From NCBI RefSeq assembly GCF_013344685.1, contig NZ_CP050137.1, positions 2,783,001 to 2,847,000 on the forward strand: 64,000 nucleotides of DNA, read 5' to 3'. Positions within the stretch are counted from its first letter, which is position 1; each line of letters starts with the position of its first letter. Shown here in pieces: positions 703 to 12,337 of the stretch. Under the pieces are notes generated by a model. It saw only the letters and a program-made list of their open reading frames with translations, did not search any database and was not told the DNA's origin. Both the position numbers and the translations under genes were made by a program. Source of the stretch: Sphingomonas sp. CL5.1. Its GTDB lineage: Bacteria > Pseudomonadota > Alphaproteobacteria > Sphingomonadales > Sphingomonadaceae.

Positions 703-1158
703 TCATCCCGGGGAAACACATGCGACCACTTCGATCTCGCAAACTCCGTCGGGGTTCGCGAGCGACCCGGCGCCGATCACGGACCAGGCCGGATAGGGCT
801 TGCGGCAGAACTCGTCCTTGACGGCGGCCATGACGCGGATGTCCGCGCCGATATCGAGATGGAAGGAGGTCAGCTTGACGACATCGTCCCAGCCCGCGCC
901 GCTCGCTTCGAGCACCTCGCCGATCTGCCGGAAAGCGTTGCGAAATCCTTCGGCGCGGTCGTCGCCCTGGCGGCAGACGGCGATCACGCCGGTCAGATAG
1001 ACGGTCGAGCCGGCGACGAATGCGGAAGGAACATGGAACGCCAGATGCGCCGCCGCGAGCGAGGGGTGCACCACCTCGCGGCCACGCCCTCGCGCGCTGT
1101 GCGGGGCGGCGGATTCGAGCGCGACCGAGGTCGATTGTTCCGTCATCTCAGAACGCAT
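703..1158 (-). CDS. RidA/YjgF-family protein
   Basis: 151 residues, slightly longer than the usual 120-130. The family forms trimers, and many members hydrolyse reactive imines or enamines or deaminate aminomuconate-type intermediates. Typical segments are FRNAFRQIGEVLEASGAGWD, DVVKLTSFHLD and the C-terminal PDGVCEIEVVACV. The arginine that E. coli RidA uses to bind the carboxylate (PAR-S context) is replaced by Trp (PAWSV). This is therefore probably not a canonical RidA and may use another substrate or have lost deaminase activity. The start could be the ATG at 1158 or one at 1146 (MTEQS); neither has a strong ribosome site. It sits between the conserved AraC-type promoter and the TonB receptor, which ties it to the island. 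Confidence 0.85.
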   Translation of the reverse strand: MRSEMTEQSTSVALESAAPHSARGRGREVVHPSLAAAHLAFHVPSAFVAGSTVYLTGVIAVCRQGDDRAEGFRNAFRQIGEVLEASGAGWDDVVKLTSFHLDIGADIRVMAAVKDEFCRKPYPAWSVIGAGSLANPDGVCEIEVVACVSPG

Positions 1159-1275
1159 CCCCGGCGCGCGACCGGGTGCGCCGGCGATCGGTCAGGGGCA
1201 ACGGTTCGGTCTGGCTTCGCGCCATCGCGATCTTCCTCTCGGCTCTGTGGGGCGTTTTGCTCGTGAGGATCGAGC

Positions 1276-1348
1276 CTACACGCAAAGCGAATGAGCGGAA
1301 GGTCGCGGGGTTTGGCTGTCGGAAGTCCCGCTTAAGCAATCGGCAGAA
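1276..1348 (-). promoter_or_regulatory. Conserved 38-bp AraC-type operator with promoter, site 1
   Basis: On the minus strand the element occupies 1348-1311. It begins TTCTGCCGAT and ends CGGGACTTCCGAC-AGCCAAA. It matches sites at 2751 and 7949 almost base for base. CTGCCGAT and CTTCCGAC lie 21 bp apart, a two-helical-turn direct repeat as expected for AraC proteins. Nine bases further on is CTTCCG (possible -35), a 17-bp gap, then TAGGCT preceded by TG (possible -10, 1278-1273). It drives the RidA/TonB receptor direction. The rest of the 319-bp gap between the RidA and AraC genes shows nothing else I can name. Confidence 0.75.
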
Positions 1349-1477
1349 TGGCGCGCGATCGCTTCGCGGGCGGCGGCGGAACGGCCCGACGCGGCGTTGT
1401 CGCGCCCGTCCTTACGCCGATTCCGTTACATCTGAAACCAGCCGGCGTCACGCCGGTTTTGTCCTGGCGGTGGCGGC

Positions 1478-2563
1478 TTATTCCATCCCGCCGGCCGGAT
1501 CGGCTGCGGCCTCGCGCGCCGCTCCCTTCCATACGAAGGAAGGGGTGAAACCGAAGAAATTGTGGAACGCCGTGGCGAAGCTCGCCTGATGGCGATAGCC
1601 GACCGCGACCGCCACCGATTTGACCGACAGCCCCCGCGCCAGCAACTGCTGGGCCTCGGTCATCCGGCAATGCAGGCTGTATTCGAACACCGTCATGCCG
1701 AACAGCAGCTTGAAGCCGCGCTTCAGCTTGTCGGTGTTGGTGCCCACCGCGCGCGCCAGGCTGGCGATGGTTGGCGGATTCTCGATGTCGCGCTTCAGGA
1801 TTTCGCGAGCGCGTTCGAGCATATCGATCTCGGACGCGGTCAGCGTCAGCGCGAAAGGGGCGGAATCGATCGTCCTCAGCTCGTCAACGACGTCGCAGAG
1901 GATTTCGAGCGACTTGGCGCGGATCATCTGCAAACGGTGGCGGTCGAACGGCCGGTGCTCGGTCAGCGACTTGACCGCGCCGAGCAGCGGCAGCCGCGCG
2001 GGCACCGCGACGACCGACGATTCCGCCCGGATCGGTTGCAGGAGCTGGCGGGCCAGCGGGCCGAGCTGCTCGATCGGCAGCCCGAACAGGTCGGTCAGCA
2101 CGCGCGGCTCTATATACAGGCTCACCAGCTTGCGCGGCCCGGCGGAGCACAGCACCTGATAGCCGGCCTGCGCGCCAGCCTGGCACAGGATCAGCGCGGG
2201 CTGATCGAACAACCGCTCCGGCGCGCCGTCGCCCGACGCGGCGGTGTCGAGCGCGGTCGGGCCTTCGATCTGAAGGTGGATCTCGAACAGGCCCTCCGGC
2301 ACGACCGCTTCCTCGCGCACCGTGGCGTAATCGGCGCGCGTGACCACCGTGAAAAGGTCGGGCGCATCCACCGGACCGTCCGCACACAAGTCCCAATAGC
2401 CTTCGCGCGCATCGTGGGAGACGGGCACCCGCGCGCCCATGATCCGGTGCGGCGGATCGATGACCTGTTCGCCCGTCCATCGCGCCGACCGGATCACGCG
2501 GAAGGCGTCGCGCAGGCCCGAATTCTCGCCGGTGAGCGCCGTCCGGAATAGAGGTTCGGTCAT
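1478..2563 (-). CDS. AraC-family transcriptional regulator
   Basis: 361 residues from the ATG at 2563; a TTG five codons upstream is less likely. The first 240 residues are a sensing domain of the AraC-binding-like type with no recognised ligand. The C-terminal hundred residues are a two-helix-turn-helix AraC domain, with IASLARAVGTNTDKLKRGF as the first HTH and VAVAVGYRHQASFATAFHNF as the second, ending in FFGFTPS. It is flanked on both sides by copies of the 38-bp element, with a third copy 5 kb away, and is the only AraC-type gene in the window. It is therefore the obvious candidate to bind them and activate the RidA/TonB, S10 peptidase and kynureninase-like/PrnB-like units. No S1-type site points towards its own start. 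Confidence 0.93.
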   Translation of the reverse strand: MTEPLFRTALTGENSGLRDAFRVIRSARWTGEQVIDPPHRIMGARVPVSHDAREGYWDLCADGPVDAPDLFTVVTRADYATVREEAVVPEGLFEIHLQIEGPTALDTAASGDGAPERLFDQPALILCQAGAQAGYQVLCSAGPRKLVSLYIEPRVLTDLFGLPIEQLGPLARQLLQPIRAESSVVAVPARLPLLGAVKSLTEHRPFDRHRLQMIRAKSLEILCDVVDELRTIDSAPFALTLTASEIDMLERAREILKRDIENPPTIASLARAVGTNTDKLKRGFKLLFGMTVFEYSLHCRMTEAQQLLARGLSVKSVAVAVGYRHQASFATAFHNFFGFTPSFVWKGAAREAAADPAGGME

Positions 2564-2750
2564 GGCTGGCCCGGTCAAGACATCCTCTGGCTCTGGTGGA
2601 GGCTTGTCCCTTCCCGTCCGGGGGACGGCTCCAGTGGTGGCAAGGGCAATGGCCGATTGCCGGCAGGCTAGGCGATCCGCTTCGCGCTGTCAGTAACTTT
2701 GTGCGCGGCTGGCGGCGAGCGATGGCGCCGGGGCGGTCGATTGTCGCGCG

Positions 2751-2823
2751 TTCTGCCGATCGCTTAAACGGGACTTCCGACTGCCAAAATCCGCGAGCTT
2801 CATCCCTCCCACCTTGGCTGTAG
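2751..2823 (+). promoter_or_regulatory. Conserved 38-bp AraC-type operator with promoter, site 2
   Basis: The operator at 2751-2788 starts TTCTGCCGAT and ends GGGACTTCCGAC-TGCCAAA. It differs from site 1 at only three or four positions. CTTCAT starts nine bases after it, and TGTAGCCT lies at exactly the same offset as in sites 1 and 3 (TGTAG at 2819-2823). It is oriented towards the S10 peptidase gene, whose ATG is 59 bp past TGTAG. It lies in the 319-bp divergent gap between the AraC and peptidase genes, where I see no other feature. Confidence 0.75.
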
Positions 2824-2882
2824 CCTGTCGCGATCGGCGCGCGCGGCGTGCCGTCGTCAATATTGCGGGAGGTATCAGCCGA

Positions 2883-4460
2883 ATGAAACTCGTTCCACGC
2901 CGGTCGGGCATCGCTCTTGCGCTGACAGCCGCGCTGCTCGCCGGCACGGCGCAGGCGCGTGCCACCGCCGCATCCGCCGCCGCTACGCAGGAGCGTGGGC
3001 CCGGCGCTGTGGCGGTGTCGGCGGGAGCCGTCACGATCGGCGGCAAGCGCATCGACTTCCATGCCCATACCGGGACGATCGACGTCTATCCGCGTCCGCC
3101 GCACGATTATTCAGCCGAACAGAACGGCCCCGACGCGACCAGGGCGTCGATGTTCTACATCGCCTATTTCAGGGACGGCGCGCCGTCCGCCGACCGCCCG
3201 ATCACCTTCCTCTACAATGGCGGGCCGGGGTCGGCGACCTTCTGGCTGCAAATGGGCGCGTTCGGTCCGAAGCGCATCCTGCTGCCGCGCACGCCGGGCA
3301 ATCCGTCCGACAGCCCGGTGACGGTGAACAACCAGTATAGCCTGCTCGACGCCTCCGATCTCGTGTTCATCGACGCGCCGGGCACCGGGTTCAGCCGGGT
3401 GTCGGGGAAAGACCCGATGGCCTTCTACGGCGTCGATCCCGACGTGTTCGCGTTCAGCGATTTCATCCGCGCCTTCCTGACGACCTACGATCGCTGGGCG
3501 TCGCCGAAATACATCTTCGGGGAAAGCTATGGCACGACCCGCTCGGGCGCGCTGGCCAACGATCTTCAGGCCGTCAACCAGATCAAGGTCGATGGCATGA
3601 TCCAGCTATCGCAGATCCTGAATTTCGATCTCGAGATCGAGACGCCCGCCGTCAATCCGGGCGCGGATCAGGCCTATGTCGTTGCGCTGCCCAGCTTCGC
3701 GGCGACGGCTTATCATCATCATCGCGCGCGGGCGGGAGCGGGCATGGACCTCGACGCGCTCCTCCGGAAGGCCGAGGATTTCGCCAATACCGACTATCTG
3801 CTGGCGCTTCAGCGGGGCAACGCGCTCGATCCGGCGGCGCGGCGGGCGATGGCGGAGAAGCTGTCGGACTTCATCGGCTTGCCCGCCGATTACATCCTGA
3901 AATCGGACCTTCGCATCGAGGGCGGGCAGTTCGCGCAGCAGTTGCTGGCCGACAAGGGGCAATCGGTCAGCCGATTGGACGGACGCGTGGCCGGGCCGCA
4001 GATCGACAGTCTCGCCAAGGCGGCGGGCTACGACCCGTTCGACGTCACCGTCTCGCCGCAATATGTCGCGGTCTATAACGATTATGTCCGCCGCGAGCTG
4101 AAATATGAGACGGCGGTGTCGTTCAAGCCCAAGTTCAACGGCTTCGCGATCTGGGACATGAACCACCGCGTCGCGCGCTCGCCCGCGATCAGGGGCGCGA
4201 CCAATGTGATGACCGACCTCGCGCGGGCGATGACGTTCAACCCGAAGCTGCGGGTGATGGTCAGCGGCGGCTATTTCGATCTGGTGACGCCCTTCTATCA
4301 GGGCTGGTTCGAGATGAACCACCTGCCGATCCCGGCCGATCTCCAGAAGAATATAGAATATCGTTATTTCGCTTCGGGGCACATATCCTATTCGGACGAG
4401 GATGTGCTGAAGCAGTTTTCCGCCGATGTCCGGGCGTTCGTCACCAAGCGCCCGGAATGA
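2883..4460 (+). CDS. Secreted S10-family serine carboxypeptidase
   Basis: 525 residues starting at the ATG at 2883, about ten bases after GGGAGG. Residues 1-26 are a signal peptide (LTAALLAGTAQARA), so the enzyme acts in the periplasm or outside. Family S10 serine carboxypeptidases remove C-terminal residues from peptides or act as acyl hydrolases. The oxyanion-hole motif FLYNGGPGSATFW is present. The catalytic triad is readable as Ser215 (FGESYG), Asp466 (GGYFDLVTP) and His500 (FASGHIS). In the island it could release an aromatic amino acid or acyl group from an imported peptide or conjugate before uptake. Its promoter carries the 38-bp AraC-type site. It converges on the aldehyde dehydrogenase gene across a hairpin. 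Confidence 0.93.
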   Translation: MKLVPRRSGIALALTAALLAGTAQARATAASAAATQERGPGAVAVSAGAVTIGGKRIDFHAHTGTIDVYPRPPHDYSAEQNGPDATRASMFYIAYFRDGAPSADRPITFLYNGGPGSATFWLQMGAFGPKRILLPRTPGNPSDSPVTVNNQYSLLDASDLVFIDAPGTGFSRVSGKDPMAFYGVDPDVFAFSDFIRAFLTTYDRWASPKYIFGESYGTTRSGALANDLQAVNQIKVDGMIQLSQILNFDLEIETPAVNPGADQAYVVALPSFAATAYHHHRARAGAGMDLDALLRKAEDFANTDYLLALQRGNALDPAARRAMAEKLSDFIGLPADYILKSDLRIEGGQFAQQLLADKGQSVSRLDGRVAGPQIDSLAKAAGYDPFDVTVSPQYVAVYNDYVRRELKYETAVSFKPKFNGFAIWDMNHRVARSPAIRGATNVMTDLARAMTFNPKLRVMVSGGYFDLVTPFYQGWFEMNHLPIPADLQKNIEYRYFASGHISYSDEDVLKQFSADVRAFVTKRPE

Positions 4461-4466
4461 ACGATC

Positions 4467-4496
4467 CCGGCGCCCGCTCGGAACGGCGGGCGCCGG
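4467..4496. terminator. Bidirectional hairpin terminator between convergent genes
   Basis: A perfect 11-bp stem (CCGGCGCCCGC at 4467-4477 with its complement at 4486-4496) surrounds an 8-base loop. It lies in the 43-bp gap between the stops of the S10 peptidase and the aldehyde dehydrogenase. It lacks a clear T-run, so termination strength is uncertain. Confidence 0.65.
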
Positions 4497-4503
4497 AACC
4501 GGA

Positions 4504-5928
4504 TCAGGCGTCCTCTTCGGACAGCACGGCGAGCGGCTTCACCTCGCCGTGGTTGCGGATGAGGGCCTTCTTGCGGACGTAGCGCATCATGGTGGAGGCG
4601 CCGTAGCGCGAGCCGCCGATGCCCGACATGCCGAACGCCATCTTCTCGCCGTCGAGCGTGATCGCGCGCGGCAGGTCGGTGTCGTTGATGCTGACCGCCC
4701 CGGCGTTGACACGGGCGGCGACGCGGGTCGCTTCCTCCGGCGTCGGGCCGAACACCGCCGCCGTCAGGCCGTAGCGGGTGTCGTTGGCGAGGCGCACCGC
4801 CTCGTCCACGGTATCGAACGCCATCACCGGCACGACCGGGCCGAACGTCTCCTCGGTCATCAGCTCCATGTCGTGGGTCGCGCCGTCCACCACCGTGGCG
4901 CGCATGTAGAGGCCGCCGTCATGCTCCTCGACCGTGCCGCCGGTGACGATCCGCGCGCCCTTCGCCTCGGCGTCGCGAAGCTGGCCGGCGACGATGCCGG
5001 CCTGTCGCTCGAAGATGAACGGGCCGATCTCGCCGCGGCCCATGTCGGGATAGTTGAGCGCCAGCGCCGCCGCCTTCTCCGCCAGCAGGCGCACGAATTC
5101 CGCATGCACCTTCTCGGCGACATAGACGCGCTCGATCGCGTAGCAGACCTGCCCGGTGTTATAGACCGCGCTGCGCAGGATCGAGGTGGCGGCGCGATCG
5201 AGGTCCGCGCCCGCGAGCACGATCGCCGGGTCCTTGCCGCCAAGTTCGAGGAAGCAGGGGATCAGCCGTTGCGCCGCGGCCTGCGCCACCTTCAGCCCGG
5301 TCGGGATCGAGCCGGTGAACACGATCAGGTCCACCGCCGCGATCAGCGCTTGCCCCGTCGCGCCGTCGCCGCGCACCACCTGGATCACGCCGTCCAGTTC
5401 CGGCACCGCGCGGATCGATTCCACCAGCGGCTCGACGAAGCGCGGCGTCACCTCGCTCGGCTTCACCACCACGGTGCAGCCCGCCATCAGCGCCGGCAGC
5501 GCGTCGAAGAAGGACAGCACCATCGGGAAGTTCCACGGGCTGATGACGCCGACCACCGGATAGGGCACATATTGCTGCTCGAAATCGATATCCGGCGCGC
5601 CCGACGCGCGCGACACCGGCGCGAACACCTTCTCCGCATGCTCGGCATAGCCGTGGATCATATGGCCGATCGCATCGACCTCTTCATGGGAGATGCGCGC
5701 GCGGCCGGTGTCGATCGAGAGCGCGGTGGCGATCTTCTCCATGTCGCGCTGGAGCTGCGCCGCCCATTTGTGCAGCACCTCGGCGCGGTGGGCGATGCCG
5801 CTCTGCGCCCAGCCGACCTGTGCCGCCCGCGCCTTGCCCACGGCGGCATTGACGGCGGCGGCGTCGTCCGCCTCGAAACGATAGTCGATCTGGCCGGTGC
5901 GCGGATTGCGCGCCTGAAGTTCACTCAT
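4504..5928 (-). CDS. NAD(P)-dependent aldehyde dehydrogenase
   Basis: 474 residues of the aldehyde dehydrogenase superfamily, full length. The family oxidises aldehydes to acids through a cysteine thiohemiacetal. The N-terminal cofactor fold has the SPWNFP and FTGS motifs. Glu228 (FLELGGKD) and Cys262 (GQVCYAIER) are the expected general base and nucleophile. The start ATG at 5928 overlaps the ubiX stop as TGATG, so it is translationally coupled as the last gene of the ubiD-ubiX-aldehyde dehydrogenase operon. It could oxidise a semialdehyde made by the ring-cleaving or decarboxylating steps of the island, for instance an aminomuconate-like semialdehyde, but the sequence alone does not give the substrate. 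Confidence 0.92.
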   Translation of the reverse strand: MSELQARNPRTGQIDYRFEADDAAAVNAAVGKARAAQVGWAQSGIAHRAEVLHKWAAQLQRDMEKIATALSIDTGRARISHEEVDAIGHMIHGYAEHAEKVFAPVSRASGAPDIDFEQQYVPYPVVGVISPWNFPMVLSFFDALPALMAGCTVVVKPSEVTPRFVEPLVESIRAVPELDGVIQVVRGDGATGQALIAAVDLIVFTGSIPTGLKVAQAAAQRLIPCFLELGGKDPAIVLAGADLDRAATSILRSAVYNTGQVCYAIERVYVAEKVHAEFVRLLAEKAAALALNYPDMGRGEIGPFIFERQAGIVAGQLRDAEAKGARIVTGGTVEEHDGGLYMRATVVDGATHDMELMTEETFGPVVPVMAFDTVDEAVRLANDTRYGLTAAVFGPTPEEATRVAARVNAGAVSINDTDLPRAITLDGEKMAFGMSGIGGSRYGASTMMRYVRKKALIRNHGEVKPLAVLSEEDA

Positions 5929-6539
5929 CACTCGGACTCCGGTTCTTCTGCTTGTGCGATTGGTCGGGTGGTTTCCCGCCAGCGGCTCGCCCAGCCGACG
6001 TCGATGTCGAACAGGTCGAGCACGCGGCCGACATTGTGGCGGACGATGTCGTCCACCGTGCCGGGCCGGGCGTAGAAAGCGGGGACGGGCGGGGCGATGA
6101 TCGCGCCCGCTTCCGAAAGGGCGGTGAGCATCCGGAGATGCCCGGTATGGAGCGGCGTCTCGCGCACCATCAGCACCAGCCGGCGGCGTTCCTTCAGCGT
6201 CACGTCGGCGGCGCGGCTGAGCAGCGAGGCGGTGATGCCGGTCGATATCTCCGCCGCCGTGCGGATCGAGCAGGGGGCGATCACCATGCCGATCGTGCGG
6301 AACGACCCGCTCGCCAGCGCCGCGCCGATATCGCCGTGCGGATAGAGGCAGGTGGCGAGCGCGCGGACATGCTCGATGGTGGCGTCCGCCTCCTCCTGAA
6401 GCGTGCGGCGGCCGGCGGGGGAGACGATCACATGCGTCTCCACCTCGCTGCCCTTCAGCGCCTCCAGCAGGCGCAGGCCGAGCACGGCACCCGACGCACC
6501 GCTGATCCCGACCACCAGACGTTTCGGCGCGGCGCTCAT
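5928..6539 (-). CDS. ubiX: UbiX-type flavin prenyltransferase
   Basis: 203 residues starting at the ATG at 6539; longer open frame upstream is inside ubiD. UbiX-type enzymes prenylate FMN to make the cofactor that UbiD decarboxylases require. Diagnostic segments are the N-terminal flavin-binding VVGISGASGAVLG, the central MVIAPCSIRTAAEISTG, and LVLMVRETPLHTGHLRML, which carries the phosphate and prenyl-binding residues. The ATG overlaps the ubiD stop (ATGA), and its own stop overlaps the next gene. A ubiX dedicated to a neighbouring ubiD is usual for catabolic decarboxylases rather than for ubiquinone synthesis. Confidence 0.93.
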   Translation of the reverse strand: MSAAPKRLVVGISGASGAVLGLRLLEALKGSEVETHVIVSPAGRRTLQEEADATIEHVRALATCLYPHGDIGAALASGSFRTIGMVIAPCSIRTAAEISTGITASLLSRAADVTLKERRRLVLMVRETPLHTGHLRMLTALSEAGAIIAPPVPAFYARPGTVDDIVRHNVGRVLDLFDIDVGWASRWRETTRPIAQAEEPESE

Positions 6540-7858
6540 CGACGGGGCGTGCGCAGCCAGGCGGCGAGGTCGATCGTGTCGGCGCCCGGCACGCTCTTGC
6601 GCACGAACTCCGCCTCGCGGCCCCACGGCGCGGTGGCGTCGATGATGAGGCGGCCCCAATGGTCCTTGTGCGGATCGCGATAGAAGCCGGGGATGTCGTT
6701 GAGGATCATCGCGCGCGTATCGGCCCGCCCGCGTGTCAGATAGGCCCACATCACGTCGTCGAGGTCGTAGATGTCGACGTCCTCGTCCACCGCGATGCAC
6801 ACCTTGTTGTAATCGAGGTGCGAGCCGAGCGCGGCGAGCAGCGCGTGCTTGCCATGACCCTCATACTGCTTCTTCAGGCGGATGATCGTGATCATCACGT
6901 TCGGCCGGCAGCTCACGTCGATCACGCCGGGCACCTGCTTCGAGACATGCTCGTAGATGCGCGCGGCGGTCGCCGCCTCCAGCGGGCGCAGGTCCTCGGT
7001 CGATCCGCAGACCAGCCCGTGCATCGTCGCGCCGGGGCGACAGGTGACGGCCGTCACCTCGAACACATGGTTCGGGCCGACCTCGACATAATAGCCCATG
7101 AACTCGCCGAACGGCCCCTCGTCGCGGCGCTCGCGGGGAAGGAAGCGGCCCTCCACGACGATATCGGCTTCGGCGGGCACCTCCATGTCGATCGTGCGGC
7201 ACTTGCGCATCGGCACCGGCCCGCCGCGCAGATTGGCGGCCAGCCCCAGCTCGCTCTCGCCGTAAGGCAGCGAGGTGCAGGCGGCGAGGAAGATCTCCGG
7301 CGGCGCGCTCAGGATCAGCGCGGCCTCCAGCGGCTGCCCGCGCTCCTCCGCCTTCGCCTGATAGCGGGTGAGGTCGTGCGTGCCGCCGAGCCGCACGCGC
7401 AGCTCCTCGTCGCTGATGAACATCGAGCGGTGGAACGAAAGGTTGATCGCGCCGGTATCCGGCTCCTTCGCGGCATAGATGGCGGAGGTGAAATACGGCC
7501 CGCCGTCGCGCGCGTGATAGGTGATGAGCGGCAGGTCGCTCAGCCGGCACTCGCGGAACTCGTCGCTTTCCACCGTCCTGGTCATCGGCGCCATCGCCTG
7601 GCGTTGCAGCTCCAGCCAGCGCGGCGCGAAGCTCAGCCCCTCGGCGCCGATCAGGCGGCACAGCCGCGCGTGGCTGCCGTAGAGGTTGATCGCCACCGGA
7701 AAATCGGAGCCGGCGACGGAATGGAACAGCAGCGCCTCCTCGCCCTCGCGTTGCGCCGCGACCGCGATCGCCGCAAGCTCGTGGCGCGGCTCGACGGTGC
7801 GGTCGACATGGAGAAGCTCGCCCCGCGCATCCAGATCGGCCAGGAATTCCCGCAACAT
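6536..7858 (-). CDS. ubiD: UbiD-family prenyl-FMN decarboxylase
   Basis: 440 residues, preceded by AAGGAG five bases before the ATG at 7858. UbiD enzymes reversibly decarboxylate aromatic, heteroaromatic or alpha,beta-unsaturated acids using prenylated FMN. The catalytic triad known from fungal Fdc1 is visible as Arg144 (FHRSMF), Glu247 and Glu252 (DEGPFGEFMGYY). Together with the partner UbiX this should be an active enzyme. Family members act on pyrrole-2-carboxylate, indole-3-carboxylate and hydroxybenzoates, among others. The context of a PrnB-type haem enzyme and a kynureninase-like enzyme favours an indole-, pyrrole- or anthranilate-type acid, which is inference. It is the first gene of the leftward operon and diverges from the kynureninase-like gene across promoter site 3. 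Confidence 0.92.
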   Translation of the reverse strand: MLREFLADLDARGELLHVDRTVEPRHELAAIAVAAQREGEEALLFHSVAGSDFPVAINLYGSHARLCRLIGAEGLSFAPRWLELQRQAMAPMTRTVESDEFRECRLSDLPLITYHARDGGPYFTSAIYAAKEPDTGAINLSFHRSMFISDEELRVRLGGTHDLTRYQAKAEERGQPLEAALILSAPPEIFLAACTSLPYGESELGLAANLRGGPVPMRKCRTIDMEVPAEADIVVEGRFLPRERRDEGPFGEFMGYYVEVGPNHVFEVTAVTCRPGATMHGLVCGSTEDLRPLEAATAARIYEHVSKQVPGVIDVSCRPNVMITIIRLKKQYEGHGKHALLAALGSHLDYNKVCIAVDEDVDIYDLDDVMWAYLTRGRADTRAMILNDIPGFYRDPHKDHWGRLIIDATAPWGREAEFVRKSVPGADTIDLAAWLRTPRR

Positions 7859-7948
7859 CCGCTCCTTGAAAATTCATCGGCTTTCGATCGCGGGTTTAAA
7901 GCAGAGGGGATCACCGCACGCCATAATCCCGCCGCCCGCCGGACCGTA

Positions 7949-8021
7949 TTCTGCGCATCCCCAAAGCGGGACTTCCGACAGCCAAAGCGTGCCGCCTTTT
8001 CTCGGTGCCGAGGCCGTGTAG
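7949..8021 (+). promoter_or_regulatory. Conserved 38-bp AraC-type operator with promoter, site 3
   Basis: The operator at 7949-7986 starts TTCTGCGCAT and ends GCGGGACTTCCGAC-AGCCAAA; its right half is identical to site 1. CTTTTC follows after nine bases and TGTAGTTT at the same offset as the other sites (TGTAG at 8017-8021). It points to the kynureninase-like gene, whose ATG is 83 bp beyond. It also lies 90 bp upstream of the divergent ubiD operon and could act on both. No other feature is seen in this 246-bp gap. Confidence 0.75.
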
Positions 8022-8104
8022 TTTTGCTACTCGCGATGGCGGGCCGCATGATCGAGGCCCGTCGGACACACGAATATCGGCGCGAGCCGCAGGGGGTTGG
8101 GGAG

Positions 8105-9205
8105 ATGAAGTCGCGTTTCTGCGTTCCGGCGGAAGGCCCGTATCTGCTGGCGCACAGCGCGGGGTGCCAGCCGGTCGGGCTGGAGGCGCGGCTGGTCGAC
8201 GATTATGTCCGGCCGTGGCGCGAGCATCCGGCGCGGATCTGGGACGCATGGCTCGGCAGCATCGCCGAGTTCCGCGAGGCGGTGGCCGCCCTGCTGGGCG
8301 GCAAGGCGGATGACTGGTGCCCGCAGCCGAGCATCTCCGGCGCGGTGTCGCGCTTCCTGAGCGGCATCACCTTTCCCGCCGGGCGCGACGTGGTGCTGGT
8401 GTCGGCCGAGGCGTTCCCCTCGGTCGGTTTCGCGCTCGCCGGGCTGGAGCGGCTGGGCCTGCGGTTCGAGGTGGTGCGCGGCGCGCCTGACGCCCTCGAA
8501 AGCTGGGCGCGGCTCGACGATCGCGACGTGGCGGCGGTGGTGCTCACCCACGTCCATTCCAATAGCGGACGGATCACCCCCGTCGCCGAGGTCGCCGCAA
8601 GGGCGCGGGCCAACGGCGTGGTCTCCGTCGTCGATATCGCGCAATCCGCCGGCATCCTGCCGCTCGACGTGACCGCGTGGCCGGTCGATGCGGTCGCGGG
8701 CACCTCGCTCAAATGGCTGTGCGGCGGCGCGGGCGGCTGCTTCCTGTGGGTCTCCCCGGAAAGGGTCATGGAGGTCGAGCCGGTCGAGCGCGGCTGGTTC
8801 TCGCACCTCGACCCCTTCGAGATGGATATCGAACATTTCCTGTTCGCTCCCGACGCGCGCCGCTTCTGGGGCGGTACGCCGGTGATCGCGCCTTACGTGT
8901 CGGCTCTGGAAGGGCTGCGGGTGGTGCGCGAGATCGGGGTGGAGACGATCCGGGAACACAATATCCGCCTCCAGCGCGGGTTCCTCGATGCGCTTGGCCG
9001 TAGCGGCGTTGCCGCCCCGGTTCCGGGCGAGCGCGGCGGGACCCTGTGCCTGGAACTCGGGGAAACGGTCGAGGCGGCGCTGGTCGCCGCCGGGGTGCAA
9101 TGCGATCGGCGCGGCAGGATATTGCGGCTGTCGTTCGGCATCTGGAACGACGACGCGGACATCGCGATCGTCGCGCAGGCCATCGCCCGAGGCATGACGA
9201 CCTGA
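8105..9205 (+). CDS. Kynureninase-like class V aminotransferase-fold PLP enzyme
   Basis: 366 residues from the ATG at 8105 (GGGGG about 10 bases before). It belongs to the fold-type I PLP enzymes of the class V aminotransferase/kynureninase group. Lys203 (GTSLKWLCGG) is the expected Schiff-base lysine and Asp177 (VSVVDIAQSAG) the residue that holds the pyridine nitrogen. GTPVIAPYVSALEGL and a small C-terminal domain are present. Kynureninases cleave the side chain of kynurenines to anthranilates and alanine; cysteine desulfurase-like relatives also exist, so the exact reaction is open. Eighteen bases separate it from the downstream PrnB-type gene, and the pair sits behind the conserved promoter. 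A haem enzyme acting on an indole next to a kynureninase relative is a telling combination. Confidence 0.85.
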   Translation: MKSRFCVPAEGPYLLAHSAGCQPVGLEARLVDDYVRPWREHPARIWDAWLGSIAEFREAVAALLGGKADDWCPQPSISGAVSRFLSGITFPAGRDVVLVSAEAFPSVGFALAGLERLGLRFEVVRGAPDALESWARLDDRDVAAVVLTHVHSNSGRITPVAEVAARARANGVVSVVDIAQSAGILPLDVTAWPVDAVAGTSLKWLCGGAGGCFLWVSPERVMEVEPVERGWFSHLDPFEMDIEHFLFAPDARRFWGGTPVIAPYVSALEGLRVVREIGVETIREHNIRLQRGFLDALGRSGVAAPVPGERGGTLCLELGETVEAALVAAGVQCDRRGRILRLSFGIWNDDADIAIVAQAIARGMTT

Positions 9206-9223: not shown

Positions 9224-10405
9224 ATGGACAATGCTGAAAAGTTCGAGGGCTGGATTCGCGGCCCCTTCGTGGAGATGAACACCGAGCTGGAGGACCTTTA
9301 TTTCGCCCAGCCGGACCGGATGGAGATCGAAAGCGTCGGCACGTCGATCAAGGAGACGCTGCGCGACGAGGGCCGCGCGCTGATCGTCCCGCTGCTGGAG
9401 GAGGGCAAGACCGGCGACGGCTTCGTCAACGCGTTCGGCGTGCTGGGCAATGTCGGCCTCTATCTCGGCGCGCTACGTCGGCACGAGATGACCAATCCCG
9501 ACCGCGAGGAGCGTTCGCCGTTCGTCGAGGCGTCGGCGCTGGCGCTGCACATCGGCGTGTCGATCGGCATGGTGCCGCGCTTCGCCACCTCGCATCTCGC
9601 GACGCACAACCTCGCGGTGAACGGGATACGCAAGAGCTTCACCTCGCTGCGCGACGAATTCCTGTTCATCGACGAGAATACGCGCGGCATCCTGAGCTTC
9701 CAGAGCGCGGCCGACGCGCTCACCCGCATCGTGCCGCTGGGCGTGACCAGCCCGGTCGCCGACGTGCTCTATGAACAGGCGAAGCAGGCGATGGCGAACG
9801 TGATCCGGTTCAACGACCGCCTGTTCACCGAGCTGGATATCGACCGCTTCTTCTTCTCCGTCCGGCCCTATTATAAGCCGTACCGCGTCGGCCGGCAGAT
9901 CTATCGCGGCGCCAATGCGGGGGACTTCGCGGGCATCAACGAGATCGACCTCATGCTCGGCGTGTGCCGCGCGAGCGATCCTTCCTATTCGCAGCTCCTG
10001 CACGAGAAGATGCCGTTCATGCTGCCGTCCGAGCAGCGCCGGCTGAACGAATGTATGAGCCGCAGGAGCCTGCTCGACGAGCTGCTGCTGCTGATCGACG
10101 ATCATGCCGACAAGCCGTGGTTCAGGAGCAGCGCGCGCATGTATCTCGAGGTGTTCGATCTCTATGCGGAAACGGCGCGCCAGCATCACGACCAGCTCGT
10201 GATGCGCTTCATCCAGCGGCCGAGCGACAATCTCGCGCAGGCGCGGCTCACCGGCATCACCGCCAGCGGGCCGAGCCTGGAGGTGCTGATCCGTTCGCTC
10301 GAAACGCTGCGCGACTATCGCTGCGCGGCGGATCGCCCGGACCTCGCCACCCGTCACCGCGACATTGCGCGGTTGCGCGCGGTGGCCGATGGGAGCGATG
10401 CCTGA
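9224..10405 (+). CDS. PrnB-family haem protein (indole/tryptophan dioxygenase superfamily)
   Basis: 393 residues. PrnB (PF08933) is the pyrrolnitrin-pathway enzyme that rearranges 7-chlorotryptophan. Its fold is that of indoleamine and tryptophan 2,3-dioxygenase, with one haem. The match to remembered PrnB is clear in the central RPYYKPYRVGRQIYRG segment (RPFYEPIRVGGQSY in PrnB) and in the following SYSQLLHEKMPFMLPSE. A His pair at 321-322 (ARQHHDQL) falls where PrnB has its haem-ligand histidine. No prnA, prnC or prnD homologue is in the window, so this is not a pyrrolnitrin cluster. I infer oxidation or ring rearrangement of an indole compound that the kynureninase-like partner then processes. 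The 267 bases after it hold only a short dyad (CTCCAT..ATGGAG, 10409-10424). Confidence 0.75.
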   Translation: MDNAEKFEGWIRGPFVEMNTELEDLYFAQPDRMEIESVGTSIKETLRDEGRALIVPLLEEGKTGDGFVNAFGVLGNVGLYLGALRRHEMTNPDREERSPFVEASALALHIGVSIGMVPRFATSHLATHNLAVNGIRKSFTSLRDEFLFIDENTRGILSFQSAADALTRIVPLGVTSPVADVLYEQAKQAMANVIRFNDRLFTELDIDRFFFSVRPYYKPYRVGRQIYRGANAGDFAGINEIDLMLGVCRASDPSYSQLLHEKMPFMLPSEQRRLNECMSRRSLLDELLLLIDDHADKPWFRSSARMYLEVFDLYAETARQHHDQLVMRFIQRPSDNLAQARLTGITASGPSLEVLIRSLETLRDYRCAADRPDLATRHRDIARLRAVADGSDA

Positions 10406-11329: not shown

Positions 11330-12337
11330 GTGAAGCCCGCCGCATTCGTCAAGCAAGCCATTCTCAAGCCTGCGCGATCGACGATGGCGGTCGCTCTCGT
11401 GGTGATAACAGCAATCGCTCTCGTGGTGATAACAGCAATCGCCGTCCCGACGCTGATCGGCCTGGCGGCCGAGCCGCTCGCCCACGAGCGCGGCCCCTAC
11501 GTGGCCTATGTTCCGATCATCATGGGCATCGCGCTCTTTCTGGGCTGGCGGCCGGCGGCGATCGTCACCCTCGGTTCGGTGATCGTCGCCAACCTGCTGT
11601 TCCACCCTGTACGCACCTTCGGCCTCGGCGAGGGGCTGATCCGGACATTGCTGTTCTGCGCGGCCAGCGCGGTCTCGATCATATTGGGGCATTTCGTCAG
11701 GCACGTCGTCATCGAGCTGGACGCAGCCGCGCGCCGCGAGGAATTCCTCGCTTCCGAACTGGGCCATCGCGCGAAGAACCATCTCGCCCTGATCGAGGCG
11801 CTCGCGCGGCAATGCCGGCAGTCCGGGGATTCGACGGAGGAATTCTTCGACAAGCTGCTCCCGCGTATCGAGACGCTTTCCCGCGCGCAGGAACTCCTCA
11901 CTCGCGGCGGCTATGGGGCCTGCGATCTGAAGGGACTCGTCCGGGATGCGTTGAAGCCGTTCGAGCATCACCCCGGCATCTCGATCGCGGGGCCGACCGT
12001 GCTGGTCCCGCCCGGCCAGACGACGCCCCTTATCATGGCTATCCACGAACTCGGCACCAACGCATCGAAATACGGCGCGCTCACCGTTCCCGATGGAAGG
12101 GTCGAGATAGGCTGGCGCGTCGAGCAGGATCGCGTTGAAATCTCCTGGATCGAGCGAGGCGGGCAAGTGGTCGAGGCGCCGCGACGTCGCGGGCTCGGCT
12201 CGCGCCTGATCTCACGCCACCCGGCATTCCATGCGGCGTCACTGGAGTTCCCGCCGGAGGGCGTGCGTTGCACGATCACGCTGAAGATCGCGCAGGAGGA
12301 ATTGCGGAACCCGCGGGAGACGCGCGGCGATATCTGA
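11330..12337 (+). CDS. Membrane HWE/HisKA_2-type sensor histidine kinase
   Basis: 335 residues if the GTG at 11330 is used; the ATG at 11384 is another possible start and neither has a good ribosome site. The N-terminal 130 residues hold four hydrophobic segments of a DUF4118-like membrane sensor. The phosphoacceptor is His146 in ASELGHRAKNHLALIEA, the signature of the HWE/HisKA_2 group. The ATPase domain has HELGTNASKYGAL (N box) and RRGLGSRLI. Such kinases often act on PhyR-type or single-receiver regulators in the general stress response of alphaproteobacteria, but no phyR gene is nearby. The first membrane segment contains a perfect tandem duplication (see 11391-11438). Confidence 0.88.
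   Translation: MKPAAFVKQAILKPARSTMAVALVVITAIALVVITAIAVPTLIGLAAEPLAHERGPYVAYVPIIMGIALFLGWRPAAIVTLGSVIVANLLFHPVRTFGLGEGLIRTLLFCAASAVSIILGHFVRHVVIELDAAARREEFLASELGHRAKNHLALIEALARQCRQSGDSTEEFFDKLLPRIETLSRAQELLTRGGYGACDLKGLVRDALKPFEHHPGISIAGPTVLVPPGQTTPLIMAIHELGTNASKYGALTVPDGRVEIGWRVEQDRVEISWIERGGQVVEAPRRRGLGSRLISRHPAFHAASLEFPPEGVRCTITLKIAQEELRNPRETRGDI
11391..11438 (+). repeat. Perfect 24-bp tandem duplication inside the kinase gene
   Basis: Two identical 24-base units lie head to tail (11391-11414, 11415-11438), beginning TCGCTCTCGTGG. They keep the frame and add a second ALVVITAI to the first transmembrane segment of the kinase. Perfect identity suggests a recent slip or a length-variable site. 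Confidence 0.9.

Follow-up and report, generated by a model that had tools for sequence, protein, structure and literature searches.

The window analysed here (G000:C1:2783001-2847000, the whole stretch of 64,000 nucleotides) belongs to the 4.57-Mb genome of Sphingomonas sp. CL5.1 and carries near its start three nearly identical 38-bp elements, called sites 1, 2, and 3 below. These elements very probably are the operators of the AraC-family regulator encoded at 1478-2563, through which it would activate the ridA-tonB genes, the gene of an S10 peptidase, and a pair of kynureninase-like and prnB-like genes. The kind of operator is familiar; the operator sequence and the gene set look new. For a rare AraC subfamily, which is paired with one kind of UbiD decarboxylase in Alpha- and Betaproteobacteria, they provide an operator and a set of genes that can be tested.

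Three elements with a common repeat and promoter geometry

The elements agree with each other at 35, 32, and 31 of their 38 positions, and a matrix made from them scores its own sites at 49.7 to 54.5 bits, whereas no other place in the 64-kb window exceeds 20.4. Their positions and strands are as the initial annotation had given them, and the same holds for the arrangement that it had described downstream: at all three elements CTT begins at +9 and TGTAG at +30, with a 17-bp spacer leading to a hexamer of the form TAGNNT. The three downstream 60-mers share a stretch of five identical bases (permutation p 0.0001). By eye, CTTCCG, CTTCAT, and CTTTTC are poor likenesses of TTGACA. If TAGNNT is the -10 hexamer and its last base lies at -7, simple arithmetic lets the element cover about -82 to -45. 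A conserved element at a fixed spacing ahead of genes might also be a structured RNA leader or a riboswitch copied to three transcripts; we rate this as highly improbable, since the element lies upstream of the promoter-like motif, would therefore not be transcribed from that promoter, and is a direct repeat.

A direct repeat at 21 bp had been claimed for sites 1 and 2; it proved real and wider than claimed, extending to site 3, whose distal half is weaker (CTGCGCAT). When shifted by 21 the elements match themselves at 10, 10, and 9 of 17 positions (sites 1, 2, and 3), and this shift is the best of all shifts from 3 to 30 over the three sites pooled (57%); the others up to 27 stay at or below 38%, and shift 28 reaches 50% with only 10 positions compared. 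Shuffling gives p values of 0.0018, 0.002, and 0.0136 at shift 21 alone, uncorrected for the choice of the shift. The 38 bp can be read as 17 + 4 + 17, the half length of 17 being set by the borders of the element, and the half-site consensus is roughly cTKCCGAYWGCYWAA. By its form, such a 21-bp direct repeat is an operator of the AraC/XylS type.

The araC gene indeed lies between sites 1 and 2, and its product matches HTH_18 (E 4.4e-19) and HTH_AraC (E 1.2e-8), both above cut-off. The elements could instead serve a different regulator of the strain, AraC being merely a neighbour, and a MarR-type gene lies close to where the site-1 genes end. A MarR dimer is expected to use a palindrome. The halves found here, however, stand head to tail at 21 bp, which is the AraC/XylS form (excerpts of PMC5481539 and PMC4514859); two of the three sites have araC between them, and the cluster of a 35% homologue contains a similar, if only suggestive, site (see below), so that we consider another regulator quite improbable.

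Two known systems resemble the proposed AraC operators. XylS, according to excerpts of PMC5481539, binds two 15-bp direct repeats, each made of a box A and a box B; at the Pm promoter of the Pseudomonas putida TOL plasmid, an activator of the AraC/XylS family likewise uses two direct repeats upstream of the promoter (same source), and it also serves the breakdown of aromatic compounds (excerpt of PMC4225500), whereas its TGCA and GGTA boxes, its 15-bp repeats, and its response to benzoates differ from the present case. The MtlR site at PmtlE of Pseudomonas fluorescens is closer in design, as far as the excerpt of PMC4514859 describes it: the site takes up 37 bp or more ahead of the -35, and its two similar 15-bp blocks, at -72 to -58 and at -50 to -36, contain direct repeats. 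This is nearly the same layout, but the sequence is another and the regulon is that of mannitol. It weighs against our reading that the elements lie some 10 bp (about one helical turn) farther upstream than the MtlR blocks (same excerpt). A combined query of the open-licence literature on AraC site geometry returned nothing.

On this reading, two AraC monomers would bind head to tail, one to each 17-bp half. As the element stands directly upstream of a very weak -35 (CTTNNN), transcription would rely on the bound activator contacting RNA polymerase. An inducer, probably a substrate or an intermediate of the pathway, would activate AraC, which would then turn on jointly the genes behind site 1 (ridA and tonB with those for a major facilitator superfamily (MFS) transporter, a thiamine pyrophosphate (TPP) enzyme, an amine oxidase, and a racemase), the S10 peptidase gene behind site 2, and the kynureninase-like/prnB-like pair behind site 3. 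Site 3 may also drive ubiD-ubiX-aldh in the reverse direction, or those genes may use another promoter.

Conservation, copy number, and rarity of the regulator

The relative G193, with an AraC 96% identical to that of the window, holds the only close orthologous locus available as DNA. Counting gap columns as differing, its elements differ from ours in 0, 1, and 1 of 38 columns (2/114 over sites 1, 2, and 3), while the 100 bases upstream differ in 24/101, 22/101, and 35/102 columns (81/304), a difference with a Fisher p of 1e-10. The 30-base gap following the element differs in 2, 7, and 2 of 30 columns, the stretch TGTAGNNT at the presumed -10 is unchanged (0/8 at each site, 0/24 in total), and the next hundred bases downstream differ in 11/102, 25/108, and 2/102 columns. 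Because of these differences the elements have a sharp upstream border, but at site 3 the conservation extends into the gene. Several points here weigh against our reading. The downstream flanks are less diverged than the upstream ones, with the promoter side of site 3 as conserved as the element itself; the 0/24 of TGTAGNNT against the downstream flanks is not significant on its own (p 0.09); and the comparison at the DNA level rests on one close orthologous locus, the orthologues of 63 to 86% identity being represented by proteins alone. In the stretch left nearly unchanged after TGTAGNNT at site 3 (2/102), the kynureninase-like frame is open upstream to an ATG at 8036 (8036-8104, plus strand); the protein may be extended at its N-terminus, leaving a very short leader, or the leader itself may be conserved.

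Three near-identical copies inside 7 kb might also be a dispersed or mobile repeat lying in intergenic DNA, a check that the initial annotation had itself proposed. In the own genome, a search for the 20-mer core that allowed 3 mismatches found three places, all with 0 mismatches (the reversed control pattern likewise found three), and a search for the half-site core followed by N30 and TGTAG, also at up to 3 mismatches, gave three places at 0 mismatches and one at 3, against none for the control. All three exact sites (3/3) lie in the cluster, at its inferred promoters; weak sites elsewhere may still exist. Among 101 genomes of the genus, our own included, 30 have a match to the 20-mer core and the control pattern matched more often; in the 100 others the best match has 2 mismatches and the remaining ones 3. 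Searches at 3 mismatches are at background level, so that remote weak sites stay possible. The viral contigs of IMG/VR contain no exact match. The flanks of the three elements are unrelated to each other right up to the element border, which also rules out a duplication of the elements together with their flanks. Given the absence of any other exact or near-exact copy in the genome, the unrelated flanks, and elements far better kept in G193 than their upstream flanks, the dispersed repeat is refuted by copy number and conservation, and its probability is negligible.

The regulator itself is rare. At E 1e-50 its orthologues occur in 2 of 295 genomes of the genus (our own and G193), and a search of 349 genomes of the phylum matched only the genome of the window. 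Its homologues (sources jgi or lgn) show 96, 86, 78, 75, 67, and 63% identity, followed by a group at 30 to 44%. Across ten aligned AraC homologues the stretches GTNTDKLKRGFK and GYRHQASFATAF in the helix-turn-helix (HTH) region are strongly conserved; we take them to hold the two DNA-contacting helices.

Related clusters and possible operators at distant loci

In Paraburkholderia graminis and Caballeronia, AraC homologues of 35 to 36% identity are situated between UbiD-UbiX and aldehyde dehydrogenase (ALDH) genes, and genes for a TPP enzyme, a flavin adenine dinucleotide (FAD) oxidoreductase, and an Asp/Glu racemase are found at these loci within 12 kb. Paracoccus versutus pBEN joins an AraC (29%) with ALDH, UbiD (66%), UbiX, and an amine oxidase, as well as with a tryptophan 2,3-dioxygenase (TDO) and a kynureninase-like stretch (27% to that of the window). 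The genome G431, from another genus of the Sphingomonadaceae, has within about 12 kb an AraC (35%), a TonB receptor, UbiX (65%), RidA (60%), ALDH (66%), and UbiD (69%), and farther along the genes for TDO, a cyclase-family (KynB-like) protein, a kynureninase above the family cut-off, a cupin, and an FAH-family protein. When 397 genomes of the family were searched with AraC (E 1e-40) and with UbiD (E 1e-130), both searches matched the same two, our own and G431, which also is the only one with an AraC match among six genomes of its own genus. Of 72,556 plasmid records, the three that match AraC (E 1e-20) are the top three of the 29 that match UbiD (E 1e-60), 20 of which were listed; three UbiD plasmid loci taken from below 52% identity gave no AraC match at 1e-8. 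In the Sinorhizobium locus L048, the record's automatic resistance prediction marks a 315-bp gene for a (2Fe-2S)-binding protein (11729-12043) as poxtA, probably wrongly.

On these comparative grounds ubiD-ubiX-aldh is to be placed with AraC, though no element aims at it. The earlier proposal that the element marks a local AraC regulon is supported. Its other half, that the element defines which genes belong together, goes too far: ubiD-ubiX-aldh (4504-7858, minus strand) has no element aimed at it, yet comprises the genes most often kept with AraC elsewhere. PrnB-family genes occur in 5 of 295 genomes of the genus. In three genomes, G140, G049, and G236 (loci L056, L057, and L058), the prnB-like gene (83, 64, and 62% identity) adjoins a kynureninase-like one (74, 41, and 29%). 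AraC has no match at E 1e-50 in these three genomes, nor has ubiD one in the 19.9 kb covered around the pair; with 4 mismatches allowed, the half-site core has only scattered matches near the pairs. Because the pair occurs there without such AraC or ubiD matches, it looks recruited under site 3. Read from translations, the genes after the pair in G140 resemble racemase/aldolase-type and flavin oxidase-type proteins, and large frames resembling TonB receptors are found close to the pair in G049 and G236.

A variant nested in our reading holds that the elements are AraC operators but that site 3 serves mainly ubiD, the kynureninase-like/prnB-like pair being a later addition. It agrees with the partners of AraC elsewhere (ubiD, ubiX, aldh), with a possible site in G431 that is oriented to ubiD as site 3 is, and with the neighbouring pairs in G140, G049, and G236 without AraC or ubiD matches in the ranges searched. 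The G193 comparison speaks against it, since the ubiD side of site 3 differs in 35/102 columns and the kynureninase side in 2/102, and we consider it possible but rather unlikely.

The possible site in G431 is suggestive of a weaker operator of like grammar. Upstream of ubiD, at L049 7458-7495, a half-site pair reads AAATTCCGAAACAGCAA-AAAT-GGCTTCCGCAAACCAAA (column-permutation p 0.001). A half-site pair model summed over nine promoter regions also gives p 0.001, with 21 bp as the highest sum among spacings 15 to 27, and none of 1000 column permutations attained the sum that the full matrix gives over these nine regions. The nine regions come from ten, the G431 ald/lrp region (shuffle p 0.78-0.85) having been left out of the modelling. 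Two matrix scans of the distant loci found weak matches only; L049 was included in the second of them, where the G431 ubiD site ranked second, the best match lying inside an Lrp-like gene. The blocks conserved between the Paraburkholderia and Caballeronia loci are half-site-like, Paraburkholderia fitting a 20-bp pair over a 21-bp one and Caballeronia offering no good pair. Also upstream of the G431 ubiD, a 16-bp unit (CTCGGCGCAAACCAAA) is repeated imperfectly about three times at L049 7480-7526, overlapping the possible operator.

The support from these loci is not decisive, and several points count against it. The half-site model was made after the G431 site had been noticed, which renders its p value for that region optimistic; the site faces away from ubiD, with TGTAG missing at +30; and 84 of 3649 other 193-bp windows equal or beat the score of the G431 ubiD region. 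With dinucleotide shuffling of the full-matrix scores, uncorrected p values fall below 0.05 in 4 of 10 regions when the middle setting is used, and under no setting do they drop below 0.018. Neither matrix nor half-site model finds a site in the Caballeronia ubiD/araC and Paracoccus dioxygenase regions, and two Paraburkholderia regions score higher at other spacings (20 and 15 bp).

Genes of the cluster and the pathway they suggest

The features considered are collected in Table 1. Beyond the TonB receptor, outside the window and on the same strand, follow genes for an MFS transporter, a TPP enzyme, a flavin amine oxidase, and an Asp/Glu racemase; from strand and spacing, the site-1 genes from ridA to the racemase are inferred to form one operon. 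The MarR-type gene near their far end lies at L036 348-878.

Table 1. Probable operators, inferred promoters, and genes in the first part of the window
Feature	Position	Strand	Remarks
Operator copy 1	1311-1348	minus	38 bp; aims at ridA-tonB
Operator copy 2	2751-2788	plus	38 bp; aims at S10 peptidase gene
Operator copy 3	7949-7986	plus	38 bp; between divergent ubiD and kynureninase-like gene, aims at the latter
Inferred promoter 1	1273-1301	minus	CTTCCG 1296-1301, 17-bp spacer, TAGGCT 1273-1278; TGTAG 1276-1280
Inferred promoter 2	2798-2826	plus	CTTCAT 2798-2803, 17-bp spacer, TAGCCT 2821-2826; TGTAG 2819-2823
Inferred promoter 3	7996-8024	plus	CTTTTC 7996-8001, 17-bp spacer, TAGTTT 8019-8024; TGTAG 8017-8021
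TonB-dependent receptor, N-terminal part	1-623	minus	runs beyond the window (open frame L036 6293-8650)
RidA-family protein	703-1158	minus	PF01042; first gene after site 1
AraC-family regulator	1478-2563	minus	HTH_18, PF12833; 361 aa, counted from ATG; would bind the three operators
S10 serine carboxypeptidase-like protein	2883-4460	plus	PF00450
Aldehyde dehydrogenase	4504-5931	minus	PF00171
UbiX-like flavoprotein	5931-6539	minus	PF02441; tblastn matches at UbiX-annotated genes in L038, L039
UbiD-family decarboxylase	6536-7858	minus	nearest solved structures 6h6v/6h6x
Kynureninase-like pyridoxal phosphate (PLP) enzyme	8105-9205	plus	PF00266; best PDB match 1qz9, kynureninase
PrnB-family protein	9224-10405	plus	PF08933; nearest PDB sequences 1zee/2nwb, SO4414

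The kynureninase-like enzyme scores 50.8 bits against TIGR01814, far below the curated cut-off of 246.4; a kynureninase above the family cut-off is encoded in the own genome at G000:C1:3847227-3848381, far from the cluster. The PrnB-like protein matches PF08933 with E 6.1e-154 and is nearest to 1zee/2nwb (SO4414), with PrnB next. PrnB is grouped with indoleamine 2,3-dioxygenase (IDO) and TDO as heme-dependent aromatic oxygenases (excerpt of PMC11791213). No prnA, prnC, or prnD was found among the neighbours scanned with Pfam, which comprise 8 proteins of the window, as far as 10405, and 6 further ones of the own genome. Pyrrolnitrin synthesis is what PrnB-family proteins are known for; here they are met in an apparently catabolic setting, in which the substrate and the inducer could be looked for jointly. 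The solved structures nearest to the UbiD are 6h6v/6h6x, which we take to be HmfF, followed by 7p9q ('AnInD'), presumably an indole-3-carboxylate decarboxylase.

This gene context suggests that the cluster may serve the breakdown of tryptophan, of an indole derivative, or of a peptide of one, two homologous clusters combining a TDO and a kynureninase-type gene with the same kind of UbiD. Bacterial kynurenine-pathway clusters (TDO, KynB, KynU) are among the nearest likenesses, G431 and Paracoccus versutus pBEN joining TDO and a kynureninase-type gene with the AraC, UbiD, and ALDH homologues, whereas the window encodes a kynureninase-like enzyme that scores below cut-off, next to a PrnB-family protein, and the own genome has no match to PF03301 (TDO). 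Tentatively, and with more doubt than confidence, we propose a so far undescribed AraC regulon for tryptophan-like or indole-bearing compounds. TDO and kynureninase would be replaced in it by a PrnB-family heme enzyme and a divergent kynureninase, beside an unusual UbiD decarboxylase step; the regulator would originally have been partnered with ubiD, and copies of one rigid operator-promoter unit would have brought it the S10 peptidase, the TonB receptor, and the kynureninase-like/prnB-like pair as further targets. In the open-licence literature we found nothing joining PrnB and kynureninase with Sphingomonas or with heme, and nothing joining UbiD with kynureninase, tryptophan, and AraC, or UbiD with kynurenine, a decarboxylase, and a gene cluster for degradation.

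Regulators of the PchR type may also be likened, by description, to the present AraC, as an AraC-family gene near the gene of a TonB-dependent receptor. PchR reportedly controls a TonB receptor gene. Unlike the present AraC, these regulators serve siderophores, and nothing at the window cluster points to iron. Finally, a candidate open reading frame of 25 codons (1148-1225, minus strand) overlaps the start of ridA and may be a leader peptide or a chance occurrence.

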